From: Terriglobia bacterium
GTDB lineage: Bacteria > Acidobacteriota > Terriglobia > Bryobacterales > Bryobacteraceae
Reading direction: 5' to 3'
Length of the DNA: 64,000 bases
Assembly (NCBI GenBank): GCA_020073445.1
Contig: JAIQFE010000008.1
Location: forward strand, 62,001-126,000
Shown: positions 43,338 through 45,451 of the stretch, one piece after another
Layout: every line of letters begins with the position of its first letter
How positions within the stretch are numbered: the first letter of the stretch is position 1
Notes under the pieces: model-generated
Told to the model about the DNA's origin: nothing
Database searches by the model: none
What the model saw: only the letters and a program-made list of their open reading frames with translations
Position numbers and translations under genes: made by a program

Positions 43338-43389
43338 AGTGGCATTTTCGCGCTGCAACATTTTCGCGTGCGCGGGTGTCTATCCCGGC

Positions 43390-44106
43390 ATGTTCGAACA
43401 ATCGCTTCTGGTCGATCACTCCGGCGGACGAAAAACCGCGACATTTGCAGTGTCTTTGACGGCACAAATCGTCGCAGCTGGTGTCTTATTGGTAGCGCCG
43501 CTGTTTTATCACGAGGTGCTTCCGGCTTTACGGATGCCTGAGATGGTGCCGGTTCTGGCACGGTGGCGACCGCAGGAAGCCCCAGTTACCGAGTCGCGGC
43601 CCACTGCCCGATCCAGCGGCCTCGCGTCACCAGGCGCATTCCACCCGCCCGTTGTGCTTCAGTCCAACTATCCGCAGGCCGGCATGGTCATCATCGATCT
43701 CGATACGCCTGCGCTTCCGGCGAACCCGGGCATCGCGCTGCCAACCGGATCGTCCACCAACCTGCCGCGGTTCGAACCGGCTCCCGTAAAGCCTGAAGTC
43801 GTCAAGCCGCCCGAGGTTCCAGTGGCCGTCGGCGGCGCCGTGCAGGCCGCGAAACTGCTTAAGCAGGTGGTGCCCGCGTACCCGCAGCCGGCGCGTCAGA
43901 TGCGCATTTCAGGCGTGATCCATCTGCTCGGTATCATTGCCAAGGACGGAACGATTCAGAGATTACAGGTGCTGAGTGGACATCCGCTGCTGCGCCAGGC
44001 CGCGCTCGATGCGGTGAGCCAGTGGGTTTATCGCCCGACGATACTGAACGGCCAACCGGTGGAGGTGGAGGCGCCAATCGACGTGATCTTCACGCTGTCA
44101 CAGTAA
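43390..44106 (+). CDS. TonB-like energy transducer with C-terminal TonB domain
   Basis: The frame is open from a GTG at 43339, but the ATG at 43390 gives the better N-terminus (238 residues). A transmembrane segment ('AQIVAAGVLLVAPLFYHEVL') is followed by a proline-rich linker ('APVKPEVVKPPEVPVAVGG') and a TonB C-terminal domain ('GIIAKDGTIQRLQVLSGHPL', 'ALDAVSQWVYRPTILNGQPV'). It would couple inner-membrane energy to an outer-membrane receptor or act in surface assembly. No exbBD or receptor is nearby. It follows the MBOAT gene by 52 bp. Confidence 0.85.
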   Translation: MFEQSLLVDHSGGRKTATFAVSLTAQIVAAGVLLVAPLFYHEVLPALRMPEMVPVLARWRPQEAPVTESRPTARSSGLASPGAFHPPVVLQSNYPQAGMVIIDLDTPALPANPGIALPTGSSTNLPRFEPAPVKPEVVKPPEVPVAVGGAVQAAKLLKQVVPAYPQPARQMRISGVIHLLGIIAKDGTIQRLQVLSGHPLLRQAALDAVSQWVYRPTILNGQPVEVEAPIDVIFTLSQ

Positions 44107-44121
44107 TGAGTCATGAACGAG

Positions 44122-44228
44122 GTGGGGTCAGGCTTTCGAGCCTGCCGCCGGCTTTCCAGCCGGCGCGCCCCATAAACATTATGGAGCCGGGCAGAAGCCC
44201 GGCTGCGGCCTTGAAAGGCCGACCCCAC
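44122..44228. repeat. Five-hairpin palindromic element enclosed by an 8-bp outer stem
   Basis: Outer GTGGGGTC 44122-44129 pairs with GACCCCAC 44221-44228. Inside are five perfect hairpins: CAGGCT-TTCG-AGCCTG (44129-44144), GCCGGCT-TTCC-AGCCGGC (44147-44164), CCATAA-ACA-TTATGG (44170-44184), AGCCGGGC-AGAA-GCCCGGCT (44185-44204) and CGGCCT-TGAA-AGGCCG (44206-44221). Three have tetraloops. It lies between the convergent TonB-like gene and tyrS. It would fold as a multi-branched RNA or DNA structure. It may be a mobile-type repeat that also ends both transcripts. Confidence 0.85.
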
Positions 44229-44233
44229 AATTC

Positions 44234-45451
44234 TTAATCAGTTTGCAGCACCCGCACCCGCTTCCATTGTTTGCCAAAGTGCAAGGTCAGCATTTGGGCA
44301 TCAAGGTCGATCTGGAGATCCACGTACTTGAAGCCACCGATTTCGAGAGCCCCAGCCTTGATTCGTCGACCTGCTTCACTTACAGAAGGCGCCATCCCGA
44401 TCGCGACAAGGAGTTTGTCCAATCGAATCTTTCGGTCGGCGTTAATCACAGCTTCTGGGAGGTCCACAGTTGTAATATCATTTGGCTCACCGCCTTCGCG
44501 CACTTCACGCTGAAAATCACCAAATGCGCTAACTGCAGCTTCTCCAGAATGGAAGTCCTTGACGATTTGAAACGCTAGATCCATCTTTGCTCCCATCGGA
44601 TCTCGGTTACCTTCTGCAACCTCGTGCCGCATCTGAAGTATCTGACTCGCGGTCTTGTCCGTCAGCAACTCCCAATAGCGCCACATGAGATCGTCGCTAA
44701 TCCCCATGACCTTGCGGAACATCACTTTGGGCGGCTCAGTGATGCCGATGTAGTTGCCCTTCGATTTCGACATCTTGTCGACGCCGTCTGTTCCCACCAG
44801 CAGCGGCATGGTGCCCACGATCTGCGGCGGCTGGCCGAAATCGCGCTGCAGCTCACGTCCGACCAGCAAGTTGAAACGTTGATCGGTTCCGCCGAGCTCG
44901 ACGTCGCACTTCAGCGCCACCGAATCGTAGCCCTGCGCGAGCGGATACAGCAGCTCATGCATGGATATCGGAGTTCCGTCCTTCAGCCGCTTGGCGAAAT
45001 CGTCGCGCTCCAGGATCCGGGCCACCGTGTACTTGGCGCTCAGCCGGATCAGATCCTCCCACTTCATTGGCTCCAGCCACTCGCTGTTAAAGCGCAGCTC
45101 GGTTTTATCGGGATCCAGAATCTTGAAAACTTGCGCCTTGTAGGTCTCCGCGTTCTGATCGATCTGCTCCCGCGTCATGGGGGGACGCGTGATATTGCGG
45201 CCCGTGGGATCGCCGATCAGTCCCGTCATATCGCCAATCAGGAAGATGACGGTGTGGCCCATCTCCTGAAAATGTTTCATCTTGCGCAGGAGGACGGTGT
45301 GGCCCACGTGCAGATCGGGCGCGGTGGGATCGAAACCGGCCTTGATGCGCAGCGGGCGGCCGAGCTTGAGCCGCTCGGCGAGGTCCTCCTCGCGAATAAT
45401 CTCGACGAAGCCCTTCTTCAGGTAGGTTAGTTGTTCGGATACGGAAAGCAC
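44234..45451 (-). CDS. tyrS: Tyrosyl-tRNA synthetase
   Basis: I choose the GTG at 45451 (405 residues). The frame stays open to 46744, but that extension is antisense to the neighbouring gene. The class I core shows the HIGH-type '[19 protein letters not shown]', '[17 protein letters not shown]' and KMSKS ('[17 protein letters not shown]'). A C-terminal S4 RNA-binding domain follows ('[20 protein letters not shown]'). The HVGH form marks the TyrZ-like branch. It charges tRNA-Tyr. No clear ribosome-binding site precedes the start, and the divergent DUF885 gene begins 24 bp away. Confidence 0.93.

Follow-up and report, generated by a model that had tools for sequence, protein, structure and literature searches.

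A folded stretch of 107 bp between tyrS and a TonB-like gene, at positions 44122–44228 of the window (the whole 64,000-nucleotide stretch of DNA that was analyzed), is very probably a REPIN, a non-autonomous element moved in trans. Judging from sequence comparisons, the mobilizing enzyme would be a RAYT of this genome, a HUH, single-tyrosine transposase encoded on contig C78 by a gene that has the REP of the element on both sides. A preliminary description of this DNA had seen here either a composite palindromic repeat element mobilized by a REP-type enzyme or a structured RNA ending two convergent transcripts, and had proposed to look for further copies in the host and in related genomes and for compensatory changes. 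The first reading is supported by copies in the host and its relatives, by compensatory changes, by the bracketed RAYT gene and by filled and empty sites. The described location was confirmed for both neighboring genes by Pfam. The features are as follows.

43339..44106, plus strand: gene with a TonB C-terminal domain, stop codon 15 nt before the element (Pfam TonB_C, 64.4 bits)
44122..44228, no strand: whole element, very probably a REPIN of 107 bp (arm A, spacer, inverted arm B), based on the fold (z −8.5) and the copies in the genome
44122..44165, plus strand: arm A, a 44-nt REP with head GTGGGGTC at 44122–44129, hairpin 1 at 44130–44143, GC, and hairpin 2 at 44146–44165, based on the ungapped alignment of 23 arms and pair counts
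44166..44184, no strand: spacer of 19 nt with a private central hairpin at 44170–44184; spacers differ among the 13 pairs of the genome
44185..44228, minus strand: arm B, a 44-nt REP with head at 44228–44221, hairpin 1 at 44220–44207 and hairpin 2 at 44204–44185, based on the same 23-arm alignment as arm A
44234..45445, minus strand: tyrS, stop codon 5 nt after the element, 5' end approximate (Pfam tRNA-synt_1b, 259.8 bits)

Structure and Folding of the Element

All pieces of the fold described before were found at 44122–44228. The outer stem joins GTGGGGTC (44122–44129) with GACCCCAC (44221–44228) and encloses five hairpins at 44130–44143 (with a TTCG loop), 44146–44165, 44170–44184, 44185–44204 and 44207–44220. 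Folding as RNA revealed −71 kcal/mol for the plus strand (shuffle mean −42.6, standard deviation 3.3, z −8.5) and −73 kcal/mol for the minus strand (z −7.0). On both strands none of 200 shuffles equaled the native value. The centroid structure of the plus strand joins part of hairpin 1 across the two arms, and hairpin 1 is thus uncertain in some folds.

The conserved unit is a two-hairpin repeat of 44 nt which is present twice in inverted orientation and consists of the head GTGGGGTC, a 14-nt hairpin, GC and a 20-nt hairpin. All five internal hairpins of the preliminary description exist, but the central one, CCATAAACATTATGG, sits in the spacer of the window copy and therefore outside this unit. 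By reading, the other 12 spacers of the genome do not contain it, so that it is a private feature of the window copy. The UUCG loop was likewise present, as TTCG in hairpin 1, but the loop varies between copies (TTCG, TTCA, TTCT, TTCC and others). Thus, TTCG is not a conserved UUCG tetraloop. REPINs carry GT[AG]G at the foot of the hairpin; here the head starts with GTGG, which is separated from hairpin 1 by the four nucleotides GGTC. Rfam gave seven matches to the element, all under the gathering score and none accepted, a tRNA scan of the window gave no match, and the repeat lists for the window alone had no entry at this place. Two further matches to GTGGGGTC were consistent with chance.

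Copies in the Host Genome

A BLAST search of the host genome with 151 bases yielded 20 matches; counting the window copy, 12 are nearly full-length. The pattern of head plus hairpin 1, with up to two mismatches, occurred at 35 sites compared with 2 for the reversed control. Thirty of the 35 sites showed no or one mismatch; three of the five sites with two mismatches were read, and two of these were chance-like inside other sequence while one was a short REP-like remnant. The covariance model of the arm also gave 35 matches. Besides solo arms, the host genome contains 13 inverted pairs at different, mostly extragenic places, which are the further copies that had been proposed as a check. Their spacers range from 4 to 58 nt and differ, with short stretches common to a few of them (L002 with L003, the window copy with L005). 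The spacer of one REPIN (L022:1068–1213) carries a REP-like repeat resembling one beside another RAYT gene (L017 type), and a solo arm (L026) adjoins REP-like repeats of the same type.

The left and right flanks of the pairs have 0–1 nt in common in 12 of 13 cases and 4 nt in the remaining one; target duplication is thus absent. A MITE that depends on a DDE transposase and has terminal inverted repeats would likewise be short, non-coding, dispersed and polymorphic, with inverted ends. Nevertheless, the absence of a target duplication, the Y1 HUH protein encoded by the gene with the same ends and the covariation of the paired hairpins within each arm make such an origin extremely improbable.

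The stop codon of an ORF lies within 20 nt in 11 of the 13 pairs, often abutting the element (exceptions L018 and L022), and at L003 and L005 the element overlaps the final bases of an ORF. Many of the neighboring ORFs are supported by Pfam and some are without such support. Judged by ORFs, some copies, such as L004 and L005, separate tandem genes. Inspection of the flanks of the 13 pairs by eye showed no shared insertion target beyond the closeness to stop codons, which may reflect insertion preference or selection, the two being inseparable here.

This closeness, together with the strong folding of both strands, would fit a structured RNA or a bidirectional terminator at the ends of convergent transcripts, kept for its function. 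However, the terminator scan gave one weak terminator-like match of five pairs, the same element occurs between tandem genes, and the same arms bracket the RAYT gene. Furthermore, congeners lack the element at the same gene pair, and no Rfam family is assigned. The ending of two convergent transcripts is therefore not regarded as the primary explanation, and we consider it quite improbable. A side role of the element at gene 3' ends may exist.

Covariation and Two Arm Types

The arms were compared in an ungapped alignment of 23 sequences, 20 of them distinct. Both arms of L020 (indels) and the solo arms except L024 were left out, as were arm B of L019, arm B of L021, arm A of L005 and the left flank of the RAYT gene (not 44 nt long or out of register). 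The two-hairpin structure pairs 96.5% of the cells in the 23 arms, compared with 17–52% in slid controls. Compensatory changes, the second check proposed for the element, were seen in both hairpins: both-sided changes affect 7 of 13 base pairs, and their 38 cells exceed the shuffle mean of 15.3, with 0 of 500 shuffles having as many. A measure of further pair types gave a less clear result, as 35 of 500 shuffles reached the observed value. Much of the covariation signal comes from the comparison of A with B arms and thus goes back to few ancestral events.

In all 13 host pairs the two arms differ in hairpin 1, one being of the AGGC type (GGGC in L021) and the other of the RGCC type; L020 carries indels. 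When natural pairs were folded with DNA parameters, no cross-arm pairs beyond the head formed in 7 of 13, and 11–14 such pairs in the other 6. Artificial A/A or B/B forms gave 36 cross-arm pairs in 26 of 26 cases, as expected of perfect palindromes. The two arm types hinder the long hairpin that is drawn for classical REPINs. The symmetric ends and the one long hairpin that characterize REPINs were not found in any of the 13 pairs. The flanks of the RAYT unit are both of the A type in hairpin 1, unlike the A/B REPINs. We suggest that the A/B asymmetry may either serve to avoid a long palindrome or mark a true left and a true right end. Within the known REPIN kind, double-hairpin arms and two arm types are unusual features.

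The RAYT Gene on Contig C78 and Its Protein

The host genome contains nine IS200-like Y1_Tnp genes (L009–L017), eight of them over the Pfam cut-off, and 8 of the 9 sit between their own, distinct inverted repeats. The RAYT gene on C78 (L016) carries the same 44-nt REP as the window element on both sides, inverted and with the heads outward. This unit measures 683 bp from end to end, and the stop codon of the gene falls inside the right REP. A second Y1 gene (L011) is also accompanied by a two-hairpin repeat, which has 18 matches, 16 of them outside its two flanks, and forms four inverted pairs by coordinates. At another Y1 gene (L014) REP-like GTAGGTCCGGCCT repeats stand on both sides in the same orientation.

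The C78 protein (P0001, 190 amino acids as read) scored 25.1 bits against Y1_Tnp (cut-off 23) and 73.3 bits against NCBIfam REP_Tyr_transpos, under the cut-off of 80. The latter family was matched by 17 of 17 aligned proteins at E ≤ 0.001. A profile of the C78 RAYT and 16 relatives found the E. coli TnpA-REP 4er8 first (1.4e-9), followed by other IS200-like transposases. The HVH histidines, the tyrosine and a Q are invariant in all 17 aligned proteins, and a W is nearly invariant. W132, Q133, D138, H139 and R142 of 4er8, given as the contacts to the GTAG guide in the available text of PMC6006769, align with W, Q, D/E, H and R of P0001. The motifs NHVH, WQ and YIENNP of P0001 fit subclass 2.4 as listed in Table 1 of that article.

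The RAYT unit and the REPIN have the same ends, which raises the alternative that REP-RAYT-REP moves as a whole like an IS, and that internal deletion of this unit, instead of independent copying of doublets, gave rise to the 107-bp elements as MITE-like derivatives. At the RAYT site of the congener G020 the flanking genes are 84–85% identical and the 683-bp unit is replaced by a short relic that retains the two ends, GTGGGGTCAGG...GATCCCAC, and presumably arose by internal deletion of the RAYT unit. Moreover, G058 contains two RAYT units which are 92% identical and lie in different surroundings. Their similarity, however, extends 43 and 17 nt beyond the REPs, and a larger duplication would also be possible. 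The REPINs have A and B arms, whereas the RAYT flanks are A/A in hairpin 1. Finally, some doublets in G042 have a common spacer, which suggests that the doublet was copied there as a unit. Overall, we regard the IS-like origin as unlikely and favor the REPIN moved in trans.

Proposed Mechanism and Comparison with Known Systems

For this REPIN, binding by the RAYT, cleavage, a single-strand intermediate, the strand used and present activity are proposed by analogy. The steps after binding follow the studied TnpA-REPs, as far as the available text of PMC8266576 describes them. When the strand becomes single during replication or repair, each arm would fold into a pair of hairpins whose foot carries the GTGG head. 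The RAYT would bind the head and the hairpins, and its tyrosine would cleave near the ends. By analogy with the guide-change result of PMC8266576, a GTGG head would be expected to direct cleavage to CC or CA. The excised or copied single strand would then be joined into a single-stranded target without target-site duplication. The copies that have survived are mostly found directly behind stop codons.

The closest published class, to judge from the available texts, is the TIRYT/REPtron group with double-palindromic TIRs and subclass 2.4 enzymes. The accessible part of Di Nocera et al. 2013 (PMC3733652) describes, under the names TIRYT and TIRtron, genes for IS200-like tyrosine transposases that lie between long inverted repeats, double palindromic in some cases. 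The TIRs are also scattered through genomes singly, as dimers or in groups. Among the TIRYT transposases given there, a sharply defined group comes from Acidobacteria. This likeness was drawn from descriptions rather than from TIR sequences, and the arm asymmetry, the covariation and the empty sites distinguish the present element from the TIRYTs as portrayed in that part. With the classical REPIN (Bertels and Rainey 2011, PMC3116915, in the text available) our element shares the inverted REP doublet, conserved ends, a variable spacer, extragenic dispersal and the link to a RAYT. The classical form, however, is drawn there as one long hairpin with symmetric ends, whereas here each arm has two hairpins and there are two arm types. 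REPtrons with a subclass 2.4 (group 4) TnpA-REP, in the portion of Quentin et al. 2018 (PMC6006769) at hand, resemble our system in NHVH, WQ and YIENNP, in the GT[AG]G foot as far as the GTGG start of the head goes, and also in "double foot" REPs with GT[AG]G...C[TC]AC ends. In contrast, that portion mentions no REP with two hairpins, and the C78 protein stays under the REP_Tyr_transpos cut-off. The BIMEs and TnpA-REP of E. coli differ, the REPs being one stem with a bulge and the enzyme belonging to subclass 2.2 (PMC6006769, PMC8266576, available text). In a literature search of the main texts of openly available papers, none of the matches listed dealt with these elements in Bryobacterales.

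Tentatively, and with considerable doubt, we propose that a RAYT lineage of this bacterial family may recognize a two-hairpin end in place of the single REP hairpin. Its REPINs would then be built from two obligatorily different arms, a left end and a right end, like an IS with distinct ends, and the doublet would stay a cloverleaf rather than folding up as a single long hairpin. The 8-bp outer stem would consist of the GTGG guide of one end and the CCAC cleavage region of the other and would hold the ends in one excision complex, while several RAYT/REPIN pairs per genome would compete for the gaps behind genes. According to the accessible text of PMC8266576, the REPs for which recognition by RAYTs was worked out have a single hairpin and belong to groups 2 and 3. 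The present system is compact and combines a bracketed RAYT, compensatory changes, ends of two types and clean empty sites. It offers direct substrates (arm A, arm B, A/A versus A/B) for asking whether a REPIN has a true left and a true right end, and the same substrates allow one to ask whether the cleavage site is determined by the outer stem.

Filled and Empty Sites

The tyrS gene is present in 17 of 23 genomes of the genus, the host (G000) included. At 5 of the 17 compared loci the end of the TonB-like gene is kept beside tyrS, and the element is absent from all five. The empty genomes have a different type of tyrS 3' part, which renders the comparison at the window site less clean. In G011 (L075) a TonB-like match at roughly 0.9 kb from tyrS was weak and was left uncounted, and the other loci of L072–L088, the five aligned ones apart, had no TonB end beside tyrS. 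Two further copies gave the same picture. For the copy at L003, 2 of 11 compared loci matched on both sides (G019, G020) and both were empty; for that at L004, 3 of 10 did so (G020, G014, G019) and all were empty. The empty sites may stem from loss in the relatives rather than from gain here. The 3' part of tyrS itself (window 44234–44657) matches G014 at 87% and is of another type in other congeners, a pattern which suggests recombination.

At the window site G014 (L072:2698–2791) has no TonB gene, and a different REPIN family, GTGGAGC...GCTCCAC, follows behind tyrS. This element has 17 matches at 13 places in G014, where no RAYT was found at 1e-10. Two matches of the same family in G020 (C199:641–681 and 1282–1322, inverted) bracket a RAYT at C199:750–1268. 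One gene gap is filled by different REPIN families in congeneric species.

Distribution among Related Genomes

The sample comprised 150 relatives and the host genome, 151 genomes in all. The arm model, with up to 42 candidates scored per genome, matched in 51 of them, in line with the expectation of copies in related genomes. A RAYT was found at E ≤ 1e-10 in 67 of the 151. Thirty RAYT loci were fetched, one per genome with the host included. At 14 of these the gene has arm-model matches on both sides with the heads outward at E ≤ 1 (L058 being weak), and the remaining loci have arm-model matches on one side, none, or matches otherwise arranged. A bracketing inverted repeat with a score of at least 19 was present at 20 of the 30.

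Of the 17 genomes that have a close RAYT (E ≤ 1e-55), 11 contained at least 20 arm matches, versus 4 of the 134 without one, a comparison that is inflated by shared ancestry; within G000–G089 the corresponding values are 11 of 17 versus 4 of 73. G069, G071 and G088 are rich in arms without a RAYT at 1e-40, and the congeners G014, G019 and G020 have a few copies and no close RAYT. Ten listed pairs of G042 and G058 were read. Nine had complete arms, all nine being of two types by hairpin 2, and in the tenth (L130) an arm is truncated. Of the RAYT matches, 1 of 10 was read in G042 and 2 of 4 in G058, and their flanks do not have the sequence of the dispersed pairs in the respective genome. In G067 two dispersed arms that were read share hairpin 1 with the RAYT flanks and differ in hairpin 2.

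Many arm matches of G069 (e.g., on C42, C6, C24 and C189) are no further than about 100 bases from the start of a contig. The repeats may have broken the assembly there, and true copy numbers may be higher. In G071 three arms (L138, L140, L141) stand just upstream of near-identical ORF starts (MATxKQIAANR...), perhaps belonging to a multi-copy gene with REP-like ends.
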